A stretch of 64,000 bases of DNA, from contig JAOLYB010000002.1 of the NCBI GenBank assembly GCA_028343215.1, forward strand, positions 83,868 to 147,867, given 5' to 3'. The notes under the pieces were generated by a model. It did not search any database. It worked only from the letters and a program-made list of their open reading frames with translations, and was not told the DNA's origin. This stretch comes from Candidatus Nitrosopelagicus sp. (lineage in GTDB: Archaea > Thermoproteota > Nitrososphaeria > Nitrososphaerales > Nitrosopumilaceae). Below, piece by piece: positions 1,616 through 55,814 of the stretch (positions within the stretch are counted from its first letter, which is position 1; every line of letters starts with the position of its first letter). Made by a program: the position numbers and the translations under genes.

Positions 1616-1803
1616 GTGATTCGATGAAAATCCGAATATCATCTTATTAAATATTTCATTATGAAGAATTATAATGCCGAGGGGGAGATTCCGTCAACCT
1701 GTTCAATGCCGACATGCCTAATCAACTTCGATCTATACTGGTGATGTCATATTTGACATCTTTATGACTAGAAAATGATGTTGATTCTACAGAATTATTG
1801 AGT

Positions 1804-2187
1804 TTAATATTTTGGAATATACATTCCCTTCCCTTTACATTTCTGCCAAATCTCTTGCAGAATATGTAGGGTGTGATCTAGTTTGTCCATTCGTTTTCGA
1901 TTGGTTTCAACATCTTCCTTTAATTTTCTATATTCTTCAAATGTAAAATCCCAATCAATACCAGCTTTACGTGCCTCATTAGCAATTTGTAACTCCATTA
2001 GCTGTTCTATGGTTTGTTTTTCATTTGCACCTTTTCGATAAATATTGATGTACTTTTTTTCGTTGTTAACATGAGGGACCATTTCATCATGTTTTTTTGC
2101 GAGAGTTTCAATTTTCTTCCGTAACTCTCTTGATTCTTTTGCTAATTCATCATATTTTGATGTGAGAGTTTTTTCAAAATTATCCAT
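1804..2187 (-). CDS. Hypothetical coiled-coil protein
   Basis: ORF; charged heptad-rich sequence; 3-nt gap to upstream gene. Confidence 0.6.
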   Translation of the reverse strand: MDNFEKTLTSKYDELAKESRELRKKIETLAKKHDEMVPHVNNEKKYINIYRKGANEKQTIEQLMELQIANEARKAGIDWDFTFEEYRKLKEDVETNRKRMDKLDHTLHILQEIWQKCKGKGMYIPKY

Positions 2188-2190
2188 AAT

Positions 2191-2973
2191 CTAAAATCCT
2201 GGTTGGAATCCTGCATCCATGAATCCGCCGCCGTCACCTGAATCTCCAAAATCACCCCCTTCAGCAGGTAAAACACCACCGGCATCAGTATAACCTTGAT
2301 CATACGCCATGTTCATGTCTTGCATGTACATTTCAGAATTCATACCCATGTTTCCCATCATCATTGCCATCATGGAACCATTTACGAATCCCATTATGAT
2401 GAACAATGGAAAATAACTAATGTTGTTTTCAACTTTTTTCTGAAACAATTGTTTATTTTTACTGTCATAAGCAGAACTCATCTCTTTCCATACACTCTCT
2501 AATTCTTTACGTTTTTTCTCAAGAATCTGCTTTCCTTTCTCAGTCAATTCAAAAGGATCGTCTACCTTTCGTAATCCAAGATTTGCTTGATATTCCCTAA
2601 TTCTTTGTTCTGCTTCTGAATCCATTATTCGTTGTAGTCTTGCAACGTATTGTTTGAATTGTGGCGTATCTTTTTGTCTCTCTAGTTTTTCCTTTTCACT
2701 AAAAGTTAATTTTCTATCAAGTTTCTTTATCAAACCCAAGCGATATAATTTTTCAGTACTATCCAACCCTTCCATCAACCCAACATTCAAACTCAAGAGT
2801 AGATTCTCTCTCCGTTCAGATTCTAGCAAAGTATAGTCAACAGTGTTAAGATTTTCAATTTCTTTTGAAAATTCCCTCTCTTTCTCTATCTTTTCTTCCT
2901 CTGATGGTTCTTTCTTTTTTTCTAATTTTTCAAGATATTCTTTTTCATATTTTTCGAGGTCTTCTTTATCCAC
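2191..2973 (-). CDS. Hypothetical membrane-associated protein with Met/Gly-rich C-terminus
   Basis: The 296-aa ORF-track start lies inside tRNA-Phe; GTG at 2971-2973 (VDKEDLEKYEKE) is a more plausible start; ISYFPLFIIMGFVNGSMMAMMMG hydrophobic segment. Confidence 0.55.
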   Translation of the reverse strand: MDKEDLEKYEKEYLEKLEKKKEPSEEEKIEKEREFSKEIENLNTVDYTLLESERRENLLLSLNVGLMEGLDSTEKLYRLGLIKKLDRKLTFSEKEKLERQKDTPQFKQYVARLQRIMDSEAEQRIREYQANLGLRKVDDPFELTEKGKQILEKKRKELESVWKEMSSAYDSKNKQLFQKKVENNISYFPLFIIMGFVNGSMMAMMMGNMGMNSEMYMQDMNMAYDQGYTDAGGVLPAEGGDFGDSGDGGGFMDAGFQPGF

Positions 2974-3047
2974 GCATGTTATTCGTGTAGTTTTTGATAA
3001 GATTTTCTGTGTTGGAGGAACAGGGGGGCTTTGAACAAGATGTACAA

Positions 3048-3121
3048 TGCCGAGGGGGTGATTTGAACTCCCGACAGCCACGTCTTCAGCGTGGTGCTCT
3101 CCCAGGCTGAGCTACCTCGGC
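3048..3121 (-). tRNA. tRNA-Phe (GAA)
   Basis: Acceptor GCCGAGG/CCTCGGC, D-arm, anticodon stem CCACG-CTGAAGA-CGTGG, T-loop TTCAAAT, discriminator A. Confidence 0.93.
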
Positions 3122-5904: not shown

Positions 5905-7128
5905 ATGAACAAATATTCTAAAATCATCGAGGTTAGAGGTCATCTCATAGATTCATTGGTTTTAACAAAAATCTTTGATAGAGTGATGGATCTCGAAGGA
6001 AAATTTGAAGTTATGAGAATAACTGTTGGAAAACTGAAAACAGATGAAAGTTATGCAAAATTACGAGTTATTGGAAAAAATAGTTCACATCTGAATGAAA
6101 TAATGACTGCATTACACAGAGAAGGTGCAACTACAAAAACCCAGAAAAAATGTAAGACAAAAACAGCTACAAAAAATATGGTATTTCCAGATAATTTTTA
6201 CAGCACCACAAATAATCATACATCAATTTATCACAATGGAAAATGGATTAATGTAGATAACATGATGATGGATAAGTGCATCATAGTAAAAGGAAACAAG
6301 GCAGCTTGTGTTCCAATTAGAGAAGTTAGAAAAGGAGACAAAGTTGTTGTAGGGGAAGATGGAATTAAAGTTACAACCCCTGAACGTCCAAGAGAGGGAA
6401 TGAATGTTTTCCAATTCATGGGGAGTGGAAGTTCTAGTGAAAGGCCAACTCAACACATTGCACGTAAAGTTGCAGAAGATATCATCCGAACAAAAAAACA
6501 AGGTGGGAAGATTGTGTTAGTTGGAGGTCCAGCAATCGTACACACAGGTGCAGCTGATGCCGTTGCAAAATTGGTTAAATCAGGACACATAAACGCGGTA
6601 TTGGCAGGAAATGCACTGGCAGTACATGATGTCGAATATGCAACACTTGGTACTTCATTAGGAATGAAAGTTAAAGATGGAACACTGGCAGTAAGAGGTC
6701 ATAGAAATCATATGGATGCGATAAATTCAGTATTCAAAGCAGGCTCATTAAAGAAAATGGTGCAGCAGAAAAAATTAACACGTGGAATAATGTATGAATG
6801 TATTAAGAAAAAAATTCCATTTGTCCTAGCAGGCTCATTGAGAGATGATGGACCGTTACCAGATGTAATTACAGATATCGCAGTAGCTCAAAAAGAATAC
6901 AAGAAAGTTCTGAAGGATGCAAACATGGTCATCATGGTATCTACAATGCTACATTCAATTGCTACAGGCAACATGCTTCCAGCAAATGTCAAGGTAATCG
7001 TAATTGATATCAATCAACCAACTGTGACGAAACTTATGGATAGAGGAACGTGGCAAGCATTAGGAATTGTATCTGATGTAGGTGCATTTCTACCAATGGT
7101 CGCAAATCAAATTGGAGGTAAGAAATGA
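5905..7128 (+). CDS. Archaeal LOR/SDH-family ornithine cyclodeaminase (TIGR00300-like)
   Basis: SKIIEVRGHLIDSLVLTKIFDRVMDLEGKFEVMRITVGK plus GG(P/S)AIVHTGA...LAGNALAVHDVE. Confidence 0.85.
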   Translation: MNKYSKIIEVRGHLIDSLVLTKIFDRVMDLEGKFEVMRITVGKLKTDESYAKLRVIGKNSSHLNEIMTALHREGATTKTQKKCKTKTATKNMVFPDNFYSTTNNHTSIYHNGKWINVDNMMMDKCIIVKGNKAACVPIREVRKGDKVVVGEDGIKVTTPERPREGMNVFQFMGSGSSSERPTQHIARKVAEDIIRTKKQGGKIVLVGGPAIVHTGAADAVAKLVKSGHINAVLAGNALAVHDVEYATLGTSLGMKVKDGTLAVRGHRNHMDAINSVFKAGSLKKMVQQKKLTRGIMYECIKKKIPFVLAGSLRDDGPLPDVITDIAVAQKEYKKVLKDANMVIMVSTMLHSIATGNMLPANVKVIVIDINQPTVTKLMDRGTWQALGIVSDVGAFLPMVANQIGGKK

Positions 7129-7457
7129 CAGTAAAAGAAATTGAAAATATTGATTTTGAAAAAGGAGATGGACTTGTTCCAGTAATTGTTCAAGATTCAG
7201 ATTCAAAAGACGTACTTACCCTAGCATATACAAACAAAGAATCACTAGAACTAACTAAAAAAACTGGAAATTCATGGTTTTGGAGCCGTTCTAGAAATAA
7301 ACTATGGATGAAAGGTGAAGAATCTGGAAATACACAGAAAGTGAAAAAAATACTAGTGGATTGTGATTCAGATGCAATAATTTACTTGGTGGAACCATCA
7401 GGTCCTGCATGTCATCTTGGAGAACAAACTTGTTTTCATAACGATATGAAATCTTAG
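7125..7457 (+). CDS. hisI: Phosphoribosyl-AMP cyclohydrolase
   Basis: VIVQDSDSKDVLTLAYTNKESLELT...WSRSRNKLWMKGEESGNTQKVKKI..DCDSDAIIYLVEPSGPACHLG. Confidence 0.95.
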   Translation: MTVKEIENIDFEKGDGLVPVIVQDSDSKDVLTLAYTNKESLELTKKTGNSWFWSRSRNKLWMKGEESGNTQKVKKILVDCDSDAIIYLVEPSGPACHLGEQTCFHNDMKS

Positions 7458-8341
7458 AATTCTTTGATTTGTTTTAACAATTCTTTACTCTTATGAAGTA
7501 CATTTTCAGGATAACAGTTTAACATCCACCCATTATCTATCTTTGAAAACTTCATGTCTTCACACGTTACATCATATTCTTCAATACTGTTATCAAATTT
7601 CCAATCAAATCCATTTCTTATTGTGATTTCGGGGTAATTATGTCCCCTTACCAAAGATATCTCCCACAATTCCTCATCAAAATTAACTTCTGCATACAAT
7701 GCGTTTGGGTATAGATAGATTACATTTGGATGCGATAATATTGCATCAAATTCTATTGACGTAACATATTCGTTATGTAGTAAAATAATTTTTTCATATG
7801 TAGAAAGAATTTCAGGATTCTGATGAATTGAAATATCTGTTATAATTTCATAATCTAAGAGATTTAAAACTTGAAGACCATTAGCACTTGATGTGAATAG
7901 AGGATTATACTCATCTTCCAGTTTCACGGTCAAGCAATCATCATCACGAAATAATACTCCGTGAAATTCCCTATCACAGTCTCCACGATAAAATGTATAA
8001 AACCCAGGTTCAGAATAGGCAGCTGCCGTAAAGATTGGAAAAACAACAGCAGTTTTTTTATCATTTCTTAAATCATCATAAATCATAGTGTTTGATTCGT
8101 CGAGTTCATAGAGAACATCACGCCAAATTTTCTCCCCATTAATAATTTCAAAATCATTTTCATATGCCATTACTTTGAATAATGATTTAACATTTGTTTG
8201 AATTAACGTTTGAGAATTTTCAGATTTTGGAATTTGTTTTATTTCAATAATTTCAGCAGTTTCATTAGAGAATACTACGAAATATCCACCAATTGCAATT
8301 ATTAAAATTACAATTGGAATTATGATTAAGATTAGATTCAT
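7454..8341 (-). CDS. Membrane-anchored protein of unknown function
   Basis: N-terminal TM segment LILIIIPIVILIIAIGGYFVVF. Confidence 0.6.
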   Translation of the reverse strand: MNLILIIIPIVILIIAIGGYFVVFSNETAEIIEIKQIPKSENSQTLIQTNVKSLFKVMAYENDFEIINGEKIWRDVLYELDESNTMIYDDLRNDKKTAVVFPIFTAAAYSEPGFYTFYRGDCDREFHGVLFRDDDCLTVKLEDEYNPLFTSSANGLQVLNLLDYEIITDISIHQNPEILSTYEKIILLHNEYVTSIEFDAILSHPNVIYLYPNALYAEVNFDEELWEISLVRGHNYPEITIRNGFDWKFDNSIEEYDVTCEDMKFSKIDNGWMLNCYPENVLHKSKELLKQIKEF

Positions 8342-9744
8342 TGATTTAATTTTGATTTAATTAATTCAAGAGTTTTGACAGGATCAGCTTTACCTTTTGT
8401 TTTCTGCATTACTTTTCCAACTAGGAAATTCACTGTTTCAGGACGTTCTTTTGCATCAATTACTGCCTGTTTTTCTTCTTCAAAAATTTGAGATATTATG
8501 GTATCAATTTCCGATGAATCAGAAACCTGACCCAAGTCCATTTCGTCCAATACCTCTTTTGTATCCTTGCCTGATTTCATAATTTCTTGAAGTGCAACCT
8601 TTGCAGAATTGCGAGTTATTGTTTTAGAGTTTATTGCATCAACCAAGTCAGATAGGTGTCTAGAAGTAATCTTTGAATTTTGTTGTTTTTCTTTAGTATC
8701 TATGAAACCTATCACATCAGTTGTTATTAGATTTGCAATATCTTTTGCATTATGATCAGAGTATGCATTTTCAAATAATTTTGAATAGTATCTGTCTGAT
8801 GCTATAATATCTGCAACCTGTGGTGCGATATCGAATTTTTGAATATATCTTTCTTTTTTAGAACTAATACTTTCAGGCATATTTTCTTTTAATCTATCTC
8901 TTGTACTTTGATCAATTGTTACCCAAGGTATGTCATTTTCTAAGAAGTATCTGTAATCTTGGTCTTCTTCTTTACTTCTAGAACTAACTGTTATCTTTCT
9001 TCTATCATCCCAGTGTCTGGTTTCTTGAGCAATTTCGATATCTCTTTCAAACAAACTTTGTTGTCTTGTAATTTCAAAGTGTAATGCTTTTTCCAGGTCA
9101 TGGAATGAACCTATATTTTTAATTTCAACTTTATTTCCTCCTTCGATTGAAACATTTCCATCTGCACGCATTGCACCTTCTAAACCAGGTTCTGCAACCC
9201 CTAGGTTTTCCAGTAAATCCGATAAAATATTCAAAAATACTCTAACTTGACGTGGGCTTTCAAAATCAGGGTCTGTCACAATTTCAACTAACGGAGTTCC
9301 TGCACGATTGTAATCTACAAGCGTGATTTTAGTTCTTTCAGATGCACCCTCGTAAATTATTCGTCCAGGGTCTTCTTCTAATTGAATACGTCTAATCTTG
9401 ATTTTTTTATCTTCAACACTGACATATCCCTCTCCTCCCACACTCATATCTCCATAAACATTGAGTTGTGTAATTTGAAAATTTTTTGGTAAATCTGGAT
9501 AAAAATAATTTTTTCTAAAAAATGCAATTTTTTCAGGAGTATCACAAGTTAATGCAAGTGCAATACTGGTTGCAGATTCAACTGCTTTTTGATTTAATCT
9601 AGGTAATGAGCCGGGTAACCCCATACATACAGGACAAATGTTATGGTTTGCTTCAAACTCCCGGTAATTTGCCTTACATGAACAAAATAATTTACTTTCT
9701 AACTTTGTTAATTGACAGTGGATTTCCAGTCCTATTTTTGTCAT
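8338..9744 (-). CDS. gatB: Asp-tRNA(Asn)/Glu-tRNA(Gln) amidotransferase subunit B
   Basis: IGLEIHCQLTKLESKLFCSC...NHNICPVCMGLPGSLPRLN. Confidence 0.97.
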   Translation of the reverse strand: MTKIGLEIHCQLTKLESKLFCSCKANYREFEANHNICPVCMGLPGSLPRLNQKAVESATSIALALTCDTPEKIAFFRKNYFYPDLPKNFQITQLNVYGDMSVGGEGYVSVEDKKIKIRRIQLEEDPGRIIYEGASERTKITLVDYNRAGTPLVEIVTDPDFESPRQVRVFLNILSDLLENLGVAEPGLEGAMRADGNVSIEGGNKVEIKNIGSFHDLEKALHFEITRQQSLFERDIEIAQETRHWDDRRKITVSSRSKEEDQDYRYFLENDIPWVTIDQSTRDRLKENMPESISSKKERYIQKFDIAPQVADIIASDRYYSKLFENAYSDHNAKDIANLITTDVIGFIDTKEKQQNSKITSRHLSDLVDAINSKTITRNSAKVALQEIMKSGKDTKEVLDEMDLGQVSDSSEIDTIISQIFEEEKQAVIDAKERPETVNFLVGKVMQKTKGKADPVKTLELIKSKLNQ

Positions 9745-11189
9745 AATGGAACCTCCGGTAAATTGGTCTTTGATTCTAATGCATATGCAGATTGGAATAG
9801 TGACTTTTCGTTCAAACTATTTGCCATAATCTGCATTCCTATAGGAAGTCCATTAATCACACGGTATGGAACGGAAATTGCAGGCTTGCCAGTAAGATTT
9901 GCAGTAACGGTATTGTAATCTAACAACATTAGCGTTACAGGATCATCAATTTTTTCTCCAAATTTAAATGGCTGTACAGGTGCAGTAGGTGAAATAAGAT
10001 AATCAAATTTTTCAAACGCTTTATTGATTTCAGAGATTAATTTTGATTTCACTTTTAGTGCCTTTAAGAAATATTTGCCTGCATGCCCTGCAGATGGTAC
10101 AAATCCTCCTAGAATAATTCTACGTGTTACTTCTGGTCCAAATTTTGCCCGTGATTTAGATATGTAAGAATTGTATTCATAGCCTTCCGATTCTAATTCA
10201 TAACCATAACGTATGTTATCATAACGTGCCAAATTACTACCCGCTTCAGTTGAAGTTATCGTATAATATGCAGCAACAGTGTAAGGGATGGTAGGAAGTG
10301 TTACTTCTTCACATGAAGCACCCAAACTTTCAAAATCTCCTATAGCATCTTTTGTAGCTATGGAAACTTCTGAGCTTAAACCTTCAGACGTGGTCATTTC
10401 TTTTATAATTCCAATTTTCTTGCCTTCAATTCCATCTTCAATATTTTCCAGATAATTCACATTATCATTATTAATTGTGGTATCATCATTAGCATCTTGA
10501 CCAGCAATTATGTTTAACAAAAATGCAGAATCTTTTACAGTTTTTGTCATTGGACCAATCTGTTCAATACTATTTGCATAAGAAATCAGACCATATCTGC
10601 TGATTAATCCATATGTTGGTTTTAGACCTACAACTGAACAAAAACTAGCAGGGTTTCTAACAGATCCTCCTGTATCAGAACCTAGGGATGCGAGACATTC
10701 ATTTGCAGCAACAGATGCAGCACTTCCGCCTGAAGATCCTCCAGGTACATAGTCAAGATTCCAAGGATTTTTTGTAGGACCAAATGCACTAAATTCAGTA
10801 GTCAAGCCCATAGCAAATTCATCCAAATTTGTTTTACCAGTAATTACTGCATCTTCATCCTGTAAGCGATTTATAACCGTGGCAGTGTATGGAGCGATAA
10901 AATTTTCTAATATTTTTGAAGCACATGTAGTTTTAGTACCTGTGATGCAAATGTTATCTTTGATTGAAATAGGGAATCCATAGCATTGCCCAATTTTATC
11001 TCCAGATGATATTTTTTGATCAATTAGTTTTGCATCGTTTAGTGCAGAATCATTTAATGATAGATATGCATGTACGTCACTATCTACATCTTTAATTCGT
11101 TGTAAAGTTTCAGCGGCAAACTCTTCAACAGTAAAAGTTCCAGATTTCACATCTTCGATGTATTTTAGAATAGAAGTGTTAAGGTTCAT
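9741..11189 (-). CDS. gatA: Asp-tRNA(Asn)/Glu-tRNA(Gln) amidotransferase subunit A
   Basis: Amidase signature PGGSSGGSAASVAA...LGSDTGGSVRNPASFCSVVGLKPTYG. Confidence 0.97.
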   Translation of the reverse strand: MNLNTSILKYIEDVKSGTFTVEEFAAETLQRIKDVDSDVHAYLSLNDSALNDAKLIDQKISSGDKIGQCYGFPISIKDNICITGTKTTCASKILENFIAPYTATVINRLQDEDAVITGKTNLDEFAMGLTTEFSAFGPTKNPWNLDYVPGGSSGGSAASVAANECLASLGSDTGGSVRNPASFCSVVGLKPTYGLISRYGLISYANSIEQIGPMTKTVKDSAFLLNIIAGQDANDDTTINNDNVNYLENIEDGIEGKKIGIIKEMTTSEGLSSEVSIATKDAIGDFESLGASCEEVTLPTIPYTVAAYYTITSTEAGSNLARYDNIRYGYELESEGYEYNSYISKSRAKFGPEVTRRIILGGFVPSAGHAGKYFLKALKVKSKLISEINKAFEKFDYLISPTAPVQPFKFGEKIDDPVTLMLLDYNTVTANLTGKPAISVPYRVINGLPIGMQIMANSLNEKSLFQSAYALESKTNLPEVPL

Positions 11190-52110: not shown

Positions 52111-52407
52111 TCATGATGAATCGTTAGATTCTTCAGATTTATCATATTTTTCATGCCATTCTTTAGATTCTTTATTGAACTCATCCGAAATTTGCTTCAT
52201 TTTCTCTAATAACGTGCGATAATTCTTTGTGTGATTTTGTATCTTTGTCAAATCGTGAATCATTTTATCAAACATTTCATTCATAGGGTTATTTTGATCT
52301 ATACTGGTAAGACGGGTTTTAATTTCATGCCAATTTTTGAGCATATCCATTAACAGCAATTCTTGTTCAGTTACTAGTTCATCTAAAGCGTCTTGTTTTA
52401 CACTCAT
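52111..52407 (-). CDS. Hypothetical coiled-coil protein
   Basis: ORF, 98 aa. Confidence 0.55.
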   Translation of the reverse strand: MSVKQDALDELVTEQELLLMDMLKNWHEIKTRLTSIDQNNPMNEMFDKMIHDLTKIQNHTKNYRTLLEKMKQISDEFNKESKEWHEKYDKSEESNDSS

Positions 52408-52438: not shown

Positions 52439-52467
52439 TTTAGAAAAATAAGTGCCGAGAGAGGAAT
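52439..52467. repeat. Partial direct repeat of the tRNA-Ser 3' end plus flank (other copy 54607-54635)
   Basis: tttagaaaaataag[t/c]gccgagagagg[a/g]at: 27/29 identical by direct reading. Confidence 0.8.
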
Positions 52468-52493
52468 CGATAAAAGAGTAAACATAATTTTTT

Positions 52494-52527
52494 GACAGAA
52501 ATTAGTCATACATTAATAATTTCTGTC
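52494..52527. promoter_or_regulatory. Perfect 11-bp inverted repeat upstream of the 52544 gene
   Basis: gacagaaatta-N12-taatttctgtc, ending 16 nt before the ATG. Confidence 0.6.
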
Positions 52528-52543
52528 TAACATATCAATCAGA

Positions 52544-54601
52544 ATGCACCATAATAATCCGAGGATTTTATTATTTACAGCATTATTGACGGGAATAATT
52601 GTAGGTGGGATTCCAATTGCATCAGGCGAAAATGTTCCAGATTGGGTAAAGAATACAGCTGGATGGTGGGCTGTTGATTCAATATCTGAAACAGAATTTG
52701 TTAATGCAATAGAATTTTTAGTAAATAATGACATTATTCAGGTTGATACAACCCAATCAACGACAACTTCACTTATAATTCCAGATTGGGTAAAGAATAC
52801 AGCTGGATGGTGGGCTGTTGATTCAATATCTGAAACAGAATTTGTTAATGCAATAGAATTTTTAGTAGACAACGGAATTATTTCATTAGAAAAACAATGT
52901 TCCAGGGATTTAGATCCAAATGGAAATAATATTCCGGATGAATTAGAAATACAGGCAGTATTTGATCCAAGTTCAAATAAAATAATCGAGGATAACTTGC
53001 AACCGCAGATCATAATATCCAGGAATTATAATAATTGTGATTTTCCAAATGAAATGTCACATTATGAATTTAGAGAAGTAGATTTTTCTAATTCCGATCT
53101 CTCAAACAAAAATCTATTTAATACGAAATTTACAAGTAGCATATTTAATAATACAGATTTTTCAAATAGTAAACTTCATGGAATAATTTTTTATGAATCA
53201 AGTTTAGAAAATGTAAAATTTGAAAATAGCGAGTTTTCAATAATGCCAAAGAGTTTTGATAGAGTAATATTTTCAGTTTATAGTACAGAAAATTATCATC
53301 ACTGTACTTTTCTACCTTGTAGATTACACACAAGCACATTTCCAGGATTAGAGACAACCAACATACAACAAAAATTATTCGGTAAAGAGACATTACCGTT
53401 AAATTTGGTGTTTGAGAAACAAGTTTTAGATTTAAGCGATATAAGAGTTTCATACATTCTTTCCCCTTCATTCATTTTTAACAGCTTTGAGAATATTGAT
53501 TTTCAAAAAGCAAATCTTACGTACTCTATTTTTGGAAATAATAATTTTAATAATGTAGATTTTTCAGAGAGTGAACTTTCAGAAGCAATTTTCTATAATT
53601 CAAATTTTTTCAAAACAAAATTTCAAGAAACATTTTTTGATAACAAAACCGTCAATATGAAAGATGATTTCAAAACTAGTAAAAAATATAATGAATCTAT
53701 ACCTAAACTAACTTTTCACACAGATATTTTTAAAAATTTACAGATTAATCACGTCATAGATTTTCCATCTATTAATTGGAGTATGGGAATGTTGATTGAT
53801 GATGATGAAAATATACTAATGATTGCAAATACTGATGACCATACTATCGATACTTTTAGCCTAGATAATTTTGAATTACTACAATCATTTACATCTCCAA
53901 TTCAATTTGAGTGTGAAACAACTAACACGTGGACAAAAATAACTGATTGTTTAAATGAACATCGTAATCTACCAACTTCCATTGCAAAGTTAAATGAAAA
54001 AATATTTGTTGCTTATGGATGGCAAAATGAAATACAGATTTTTAACTCTGAAGGAGAATATTTATACAAATTTGGTCAAAAAGGAAACAAATCAGGAGAA
54101 TTTATCGACCCGTTTAACATCAATGTATGGGAAGAAAAATTATACGCTTTAGACTCGGGAAATAATCGAATTCAAATTTTTGACGAGAATTCTAATTATG
54201 AAGACGAATTTTCGACAAATTATTTACAAGAAAACAATTCAAGTCCAGTTGATTTTTCAATATATGACAAACAGATTTTTGTTACAAATGATTTGAATTC
54301 AAATGTGTCACGTTTTGATTTAGAAGGTCAATTAATAGATACAATTGACTTATCAACATATGTTGATTCCGGTTCAATATCATCCATTTATGTTAATGAT
54401 GGCATGATGACGATTACTGATTCGTCTCAACATCAAATAATGGTCTTTGATTTATCAGGTCAACCACAACTAAGTTTTGGAGAAATGGGTAATGAATATG
54501 GACAATTTATGAATTCAAAAGATGTGATTTTCGATGATAATATGTTCTTTATTTCTGACACTAATAATTACAGAATTCAAATTTTTGAAATTATAAGATA
54601 A
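52544..54601 (+). CDS. Secreted multidomain protein: two PDWVKNTAGWWA repeats, pentapeptide-like region, C-terminal NHL-type propeller
   Basis: Signal-like N-terminus; PDWVKNTAGWWAVDSISETEFVNAIEFL x2; FSNSDLSNKNLFNTKF; KFGQKGNKSGEFIDPFNINVWEEKLYALDSGNNRIQIF. Confidence 0.8.
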   Translation: MHHNNPRILLFTALLTGIIVGGIPIASGENVPDWVKNTAGWWAVDSISETEFVNAIEFLVNNDIIQVDTTQSTTTSLIIPDWVKNTAGWWAVDSISETEFVNAIEFLVDNGIISLEKQCSRDLDPNGNNIPDELEIQAVFDPSSNKIIEDNLQPQIIISRNYNNCDFPNEMSHYEFREVDFSNSDLSNKNLFNTKFTSSIFNNTDFSNSKLHGIIFYESSLENVKFENSEFSIMPKSFDRVIFSVYSTENYHHCTFLPCRLHTSTFPGLETTNIQQKLFGKETLPLNLVFEKQVLDLSDIRVSYILSPSFIFNSFENIDFQKANLTYSIFGNNNFNNVDFSESELSEAIFYNSNFFKTKFQETFFDNKTVNMKDDFKTSKKYNESIPKLTFHTDIFKNLQINHVIDFPSINWSMGMLIDDDENILMIANTDDHTIDTFSLDNFELLQSFTSPIQFECETTNTWTKITDCLNEHRNLPTSIAKLNEKIFVAYGWQNEIQIFNSEGEYLYKFGQKGNKSGEFIDPFNINVWEEKLYALDSGNNRIQIFDENSNYEDEFSTNYLQENNSSPVDFSIYDKQIFVTNDLNSNVSRFDLEGQLIDTIDLSTYVDSGSISSIYVNDGMMTITDSSQHQIMVFDLSGQPQLSFGEMGNEYGQFMNSKDVIFDDNMFFISDTNNYRIQIFEIIR
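52635..52723 (+). repeat. Exact 89-nt direct repeat, copy 1 (copy 2 at 52779-52867)
   Basis: ttccagattgggtaaagaatacagctgg...atagaatttttagta identical in both copies, offset 144 nt. Confidence 0.95.
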
Positions 54602-54620
54602 AAAAATTTAGAAAAATAAG

Positions 54621-54720
54621 CGCCGAGAGAGGGATTTGAACCCCCGTGTGCAGAGCACAGACGCTATCCTGTTTTGAGATTTCGAGGCGTCCGCCTTGGA
54701 CCAAGCTTGGCTATCTCGAC
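54621..54720 (-). tRNA. tRNA-Ser (CGA) with predicted 15-nt intron (54666-54680)
   Basis: Acceptor GTCGAGA/TCTCGGC, discriminator G, anticodon stem GACGC/GCGTC interrupted by ATCTCAAAACAGGAT, variable arm GTGC-TCT-GCAC, T-loop TTCAAAT. Confidence 0.88.
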
Positions 54721-54791: not shown

Positions 54792-55814
54792 ATGGGATTA
54801 GATCTAAAACCATTACTAGTCAGAGAAAAAACACAGCTTGAATCATTTACAAATAAAGTTGTAGCAATCGATGCATACAACGCAATTTATCAATTTTTAG
54901 CTATAATCAGAGGACCTGAAGGACTCCATCTAACAGACTCACAAGGAAGAGTGACAAGTCACATTACAGGATTACTATTTAGAAACATAAATTTTCTCAC
55001 AATGGGAATAAAGCCAGTTTACGTATTTGATGGCAAACCACCTTCACTAAAATCAGCCGAAATTGAAAAAAGAAAACAAATTAAAAAAGAAGCTACAGTA
55101 AAATATGAAAAAGCAATTACTACAGGAAACATGGAAGATGCAAGAAAATATGCACAACAAACCACATCAATGAGAGATGGAATGGTAGAAGATTCGAAAA
55201 AATTATTAGATTTATTTGGAATACCTCACATACAAGCACCTTCAGAAGGAGAAGCGACAGCTGCAAATCTTACAATTACAGGACAAGCATTTGCATCAGC
55301 AAGTCAAGATTTTGATTCAATTTTATTTGGTGCAAAAAGATTAGTGAGAAATTTTACAAATAGTGGAAGAAGAAAATTACCGAATAGAAATTCCTACATC
55401 GAAGTTTTACCAGAGATGATTGAGTTTCAAAAAAATTTAGAAAGTATGGGATTAACTAGAGAAGAATTAGTAGATACAGGAATATTGATTGGGACTGATT
55501 TTAATCCAGATGGATTTGAAAGAGTAGGACCAAAAACCGCCATTAAGATGATTAAACAGCATAAAAGACTAGAAGATATCCCTCAAATTCAAGAACAATT
55601 AGAACAGATTCCATTTGACGAAATAAGGAAAATTTTTCTTGAACCAAATGTAGCTAAGATAGATAAAATTGAATTTGGTGAAACGGATTTTGAAGGAATT
55701 GTAAAATATTTGTCAGAAGAACGTGATTTTTCTAAAGATAGAGTGGAAACATCAATGAACCGATTAAAGAAAAGCCTTGAGAAGAAAAGTCAAACATTAG
55801 ATCAATTCTTTTAA
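54792..55814 (+). CDS. fen: Flap endonuclease FEN-1
   Basis: [36 protein letters not shown]-terminal PIP-box-like SQTLDQFF. Confidence 0.96.

Follow-up and report, generated by a model that had tools for sequence, protein, structure and literature searches.

The locus described here lies within a 64-kb stretch of a Candidatus Nitrosopelagicus genome, referred to below as the window, in an assembly (G000) that is 75% complete. An intact tRNA-Ser(CGA) gene and a FEN1 gene stand on one side of the site and a conserved coiled-coil gene on the other, and between them two copies of a short direct repeat bracket a single open reading frame (Table 1). The tRNA gene has a 15-nt intron at the canonical position in the anticodon loop; ARAGORN recovers it when introns are allowed and misses it by default because of that intron. 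Its place beside FEN1 is kept across 75 Nitrosopumilaceae loci.

Table 1. Features of the tRNA-Ser(CGA) site and of a second cassette in the window (window positions).
Feature	Position	Strand	Evidence
98-aa coiled-coil gene, conserved, distal-side neighbour of the site	52111..52407	-	
Distal repeat, attR-like, 25/26 identical; runs on into native flank seen in sisters	52439..52464	-	
Inserted cassette, 2142 bp, between the repeat copies	52465..54606	no strand	
Inverted repeat GACAGAAATTA-N12-TAATTTCTGTC, just inside the distal repeat, within the 79-bp leader	52494..52527	no strand	
Cargo gene, 685 aa	52544..54601	+	ORF; Pfam
Proximal repeat, attL-like: 11 nt of tRNA 3' end, discriminator G, 14 nt of trailer	54607..54632	-	sequence; sister empty-site alignment
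tRNA-Ser(CGA), intact, attachment gene	54621..54720	-	ARAGORN with introns; Rfam tRNA match
FEN1 gene, tRNA-side neighbour of the site	54792..55814	+	
Second window cassette, at tRNA-Phe(gaa); 127-aa and 260/296-aa ORFs, no integrase	1673..3063	-	

The inserted DNA is almost entirely coding, as the 685-aa frame occupies 2058 of the 2142 bp (96%), with 79 bp before it and only 5 bp between its stop codon and the proximal repeat; its GC content is 28%, against 32% for the window. Besides an apparent signal peptide at its N-terminus, the encoded protein carries two WWA repeats (PDWVKNTAGWWA...), pentapeptide repeats and, at the C-terminus, a beta-propeller of the NHL type (Pfam matches PF00805, 3e-13; PF17170, 9e-6; PF01436, 3e-5), and is probably secreted or held at the cell surface. 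No full-length homologue was found among 151 genomes of the family and no relative in IMG/VR; a plasmid search with the cargo returned distant propeller and pentapeptide matches only, and PADLOC gave it no defence match. The WWA repeat (PDWVKNxAGWWA...EFVxAIexLVxxGII), which no Pfam model matched, is abundant in secreted proteins of the genus. Genes related to it are common there, with 21 matches in G000 (window positions 52544-52900 and 20 other places). A gene of WWA - SGNH-like - pentapeptide make-up in G015 (L056 6300-8530) is inserted between nadE and the Rieske gene with no seam and no direct repeats, and probably represents another route of gene gain.

According to the ORF list and Pfam, the cassette holds this one ORF and no integrase homology, and its 84 bp of non-coding DNA leave no space for an integrase or its remains. 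Terminal inverted repeats are absent from the cassette (the best end match was equalled by 51% of shuffles), and no packaging or transfer signal was identified in it. The inverted repeat in the leader is a candidate site for a recombinase or an accessory factor, or could be an operator of the cargo gene. In the 75% complete assembly no match to the tyrosine integrase model PF00589 was found, a weak absence, given that the G015 integrase discussed below escaped this search too; a tblastn scan for divergent integrases covered 428 kb of the assembly. The archaeal SSV-type integrase model PF16795 has no match in the genus, and Cas1 is missing from G000 and represented in the 31 genus genomes by one broken fragment only (G007).

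The original prediction held that the 3' end of tRNA-Ser and its flank are duplicated around one gene without an integrase, and both parts are borne out: the 29-nt direct repeat (52439-52467 and 54607-54635) is identical at 27/29 positions in the same orientation, and the 685-aa ORF fills the insert. The solid block of this repeat is 26 nt long, with 25/26 positions matching, and consists of 14 nt of flank (tttagaaaaataag), the discriminator position and 11 nt of the tRNA (gccgagagagg), the last covering the 3' strand of the acceptor stem and part of that of the T-stem. The sole mismatch in the block is at the discriminator position (T vs C). Inside the window the second-best match to the 29-mer reaches 20/29, and when the distal region was compared by BLAST with the whole assembly the two repeat sites were the only matches at E<=0.001; the repeat is thus confined to two places and is not scattered over unrelated sites.

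Close relatives keep the gene order nadE - cysS - USP - 98-aa gene - [site] - tRNA-Ser - FEN1. In G014, G015, G018 and G020, all Candidatus Nitrosopelagicus with ~95% nucleotide identity, the DNA runs from the 98-aa gene through one repeat copy to the tRNA with no 685-aa gene, and when the filled site is aligned with the empty one at tRNA-Ser, the overlap in the subject is the repeat. It had been anticipated that some relatives would lack the gene and one repeat as a unit, and the four closest genomes do have such a single uninterrupted site; the gene is not syntenic, as vertical inheritance in the relatives would have made it. It is also missing here in more distant congeners and at all other genus loci examined, which, together with the lack of a full-length homologue in the family, makes the insert a lineage-specific gain. 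The insertion is precise and lineage-specific. Alternatively, the gene could be ancestral and deleted in relatives between short repeats, or gained by homologous recombination beside a chance repeat, given that deletion between direct repeats can leave one copy and that WWA genes are common, one of them lying seamlessly in G015 without repeats. This seems highly improbable, because none of the relatives examined, whether close or distant, has the gene, part of the repeat is tRNA 3'-end sequence and ~4e-8 matches of at least 27/29 would be expected in the window, and a control scan upstream of tRNA genes contains no such repeats.

That scan looked for tRNA 3'-end fragments within 10 kb downstream of the tRNA ends and used the upstream side as the control. 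Fragments were found downstream of 2/27 tRNA ends in G000 (Ser, Phe), 3/33 in G020 (Phe, Met and Lys, the last with two fragments in tandem), 0/42 in G018 and 0/42 in G001, where the denominators are tRNA ends scanned and not distinct tRNA genes because overlapping loci were counted; upstream there were none in any of these four genomes. Empty-site alignments show insertions at tRNA-Phe of G000 and at tRNA-Phe, tRNA-Lys and tRNA-Met of G020, and filled and empty alignments overlap by the repeat at Ser (G000, G009, G223), Phe (G000, G020), Lys (G020) and Met (G020). No ORF resembling any of three genus integrases is present in the G000 Ser and Phe cassettes or in the G020 Phe, Lys and Met cassettes. 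For the second window cassette, the tRNA-Phe 3' end core at 3046-3063 is repeated at 1673-1690, and the same site is empty in G018 and filled differently in G020. Cargo is diverse: a 2.17-kb tRNA-Lys cassette of G020 has a 680-aa secreted PsbP-like protein as its sole gene, a 6.4-kb one carries a TFIIB-like protein with TPR and pentapeptide genes, and the G020 tRNA-Met cassette encodes a 333-aa protein. A candidate fragment near tRNA-Val(cac) (score 13) was not counted, being outside the tRNA core and recurring in G018. At the end of contig G000:C1 (L104 616-2317), the DNA downstream of tRNA-Met is unlike the conserved region beyond the G020 cassette, and its first ~22 nt resemble the G020 Met cassette end; this is possibly a third cassette in G000, cut by the contig end.

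The tRNA-Ser site also receives elements with an integrase. For example, G017 has a different 4.3-kb insertion between USP and tRNA-Ser of the same locus (L061 7730-12000), bracketed by a 12-nt tRNA core. It encodes a 440-aa tyrosine integrase adjoining tRNA-Ser (PF00589, 1.5e-12), an 87-aa two-TM protein and a 382-aa protein without a Pfam match, which is a probable HUH-type replication protein judging from its PHFHCVVYG motif. Related Reps are found near integrases of G020, G024 and G010, which suggests a family of small Nitrosopelagicus plasmids or viruses; relatives of the G017 integrase were not found in IMG/VR. Since the same tRNA-Ser 3' end holds an integrase-bearing element in G017, the earlier reading of the locus as integration into a tRNA gene is strengthened. 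Among 75 FEN1-linked tRNA-Ser(CGA) loci surveyed in Nitrosopumilaceae, stretches bracketed by tRNA fragments occur at L163, L182 (two fragments), L209 and L215, and G009 and G223 also have bracketed tRNA-Ser insertions. A 12-nt match at L055/L154 was left out of this count, covering only the last few tRNA bases and the trailer. Integrase remains at L182 (truncated; PF00589, 0.0027) and at L209 (a fragment, 32% over 124 aa against the integrase of G002) show that decay also occurs at the tRNA-Ser site. In L209 (Thaumarchaeota NORP47; 6178-10000), ~3.8 kb separate FEN1 from the tRNA-Ser 5' end; most other loci have tens to hundreds of bp.

Cassettes with different cargo have ends in common. The left ends of the two tandem tRNA-Lys cassettes of G020 are alike at 81/83 nt, although their cargo differs; the pair also has at least 36 nt in common inside the right att, and the single-gene cassette retains both ends of its neighbour. 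A stretch of 19-20 nt from this left end, TAACTAGACCCCAATTCACA, occurs at only three places in the 31 genus genomes, two of them in the G020 cassettes and the third in G015, at the same offset (15-16 nt) from the tRNA-Lys(ttt) 3' end and just before a 454-aa ORF. Over its full length this ORF is homologous (E 3e-28) to the G002 integrase, itself a match to PF00589, and a D5-type primase/helicase gene follows it (L287 12761-20000, G015:C7); the ORF has no convincing Pfam or PHROGs match and no relative in IMG/VR. The G015 element looks autonomous and, bearing one end of the tRNA-Lys cassettes, is a candidate for the helper of those in G020; the other end of the element was not located. Similarly, the tRNA-Phe cassettes of G000 and G020 differ in cargo and have CGGCATTGAACAGGT in common beside the distal att, a sequence found nowhere else in the 31 genomes. 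The window and G009 tRNA-Ser cassettes have in common the inverted-repeat arms ACAGAAA-N18/19-TTTCTGT, which lie inwards of the distal att by about 30 bp in the former and 16 bp in the latter; the pattern has no further occurrence in 3.75 Mb of DNA scanned, a rarity to be taken as a post hoc measure because the motif was noticed by comparing these two cassettes. Moreover, the outer boundary of the repeat, +13/14 nt past the tRNA end, is common to the tRNA-Ser cassettes of G000, G009 and G223. Searches of IMG/VR found neither a copy of the tRNA-Lys end nor the tRNA-Ser core with the inverted repeat, and the ends of the tRNA-Ser cassette were not found on any integrase element, whether in IMG/VR or in the genus data.

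The shared ends are the main argument for mobilisation in trans, and we consider it probable that the feature is a non-autonomous integrative one-gene cassette, joined to the chromosome by a tyrosine-type site-specific recombinase supplied by another element. A small circular DNA would hold a single gene for a surface protein together with the tRNA-Ser 3' end and ~13 nt of its trailer (attP), and the recombinase would join this attP to the identical chromosomal sequence (attB), so that an intact tRNA would stand at one end of the insert and a 3' fragment at the other. The enzyme would have come in trans from an integrase-bearing element, as suggested by the tRNA-Lys cassettes of the genus. Another view is that a formerly autonomous, integrase-bearing element was stripped to one gene and two att sites and is now immobile, which would agree with the decaying integrases at the tRNA-Ser hotspot in relatives (L182, L209) and with the failure to find an integrase in the host genome. 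Such a relic is unlikely, however, as the cassette is 96% coding with both ends intact, and deletion would have had to stop 5 bp from the stop codon and leave untouched exactly one whole gene, both copies of att and the distal end motif. In addition, cassettes without an integrase are found repeatedly, at Ser, Phe, Lys and Met, and the single-gene tRNA-Lys cassette of G020 has both ends of its neighbour. The original prediction had left the choice between a relic and a cassette mobilised in trans; the small non-coding remainder, the shared ends and the integrase-bearing element with the tRNA-Lys end favour the cassette.

In G000 the duplicated trailer has the sequence of the host lineage, down to a run of A5 in place of the A6-A7 of sisters, and the duplicated trailers of G009 and G223 likewise match their own host lineages. 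The element therefore last resided in the same lineage, or insertion duplicated the target. This observation fits plain att recombination uneasily, and target-site duplication is the simpler explanation of it. In that case a casposon-like or other integrase would have transposed the cassette with a 24-28-bp staggered cut in the tRNA trailer; casposons make target-site duplications (PMC6563490), and in the tRNA-Ser cassettes of G000, G009 and G223, three independent cases, the repeat stops 13-14 nt beyond the tRNA. Even so, transposition appears improbable, since the cassette lacks terminal inverted repeats, the genome lacks Cas1 and only 1/31 genus genomes has a broken fragment of it, and the distal repeat copies have differences of their own. 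Furthermore, in the insertions at Phe, Lys and Met and in that of G017 the cores are short and confined to the tRNA and the flanks are non-identical, as in site-specific recombination, and these insertions speak for recombination.

More broadly, we tentatively propose that streamlined open-ocean ammonia-oxidising archaea may swap surface-protein genes by means of integrase-less cassettes of one to a few genes, with many tRNA 3' ends as docks and the integrases of co-circulating plasmids or viruses acting in trans. If true, this would be the archaeal equivalent of gene cassettes, docked at tRNA ends. A population study of Nitrosopelagicus brevis reported that basin-specific genes are not strongly organised into islands and suggested that the mechanism of gene gain and loss differs from the one in Prochlorococcus (PMC9239043). 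Cassettes of a single gene, docked at tRNAs and matched to a helper in their ends, would give a concrete and testable mechanism of gene turnover in this abundant marine ammonia oxidiser, and more of them could be found by a simple rule, a tRNA 3' fragment plus an empty site.

Several known systems resemble the window cassette in part. Thaumarchaeal cryptic integrated elements insert at tRNA 3' ends between direct repeats with a median of 17 bp (8 to over 25) and have empty sites in relatives (Krupovic et al. 2019, PMC6563490); the cassette is alike in its att-like repeats at a tRNA 3' end and its empty site. The integrase is by definition the most conserved protein of those elements, the smallest reported has 2.6 kb and four genes, and none was reported in Nitrosopelagicus brevis CN25 (PMC6563490), whereas the cassette has no integrase and a single gene within its 2142 bp. 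A survey in which an integrase defines the integrated element will overlook cassettes of this kind. Tycheposons of Prochlorococcus and Methylophilaceae, which measure 4-200 kb and carry a recombinase (PMC10872708), are alike in their tRNA anchoring and represent tyrosine-recombinase-based cargo exchange in streamlined ocean plankton; the window cassette differs in its 2.1 kb, its one gene, its lack of a recombinase and its archaeal host. Casposons also target gene 3' ends and leave direct repeats, and the 26-bp repeat can be read as att or as a target-site duplication, but the cassette has neither Cas1 nor terminal inverted repeats. Many phage satellites retain their own integrase. Phage satellites and other hitcher elements depend on a helper (PMC11389934), and the likeness here lies in ends common with a helper-like element, in the case of the tRNA-Lys cassettes. 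Helper-matched ends link those cassettes to the G015 integrase element, and none were found for the tRNA-Ser cassette, which shows the traits of a helper-dependent cassette in having no recombinase of its own and an inverted repeat common with the G009 tRNA-Ser cassette only. As it falls outside the integrase and size definitions of thaumarchaeal cryptic integrated elements and tycheposons, the window cassette behaves as a satellite or cargo cassette of these two systems rather than as a member of either as defined.
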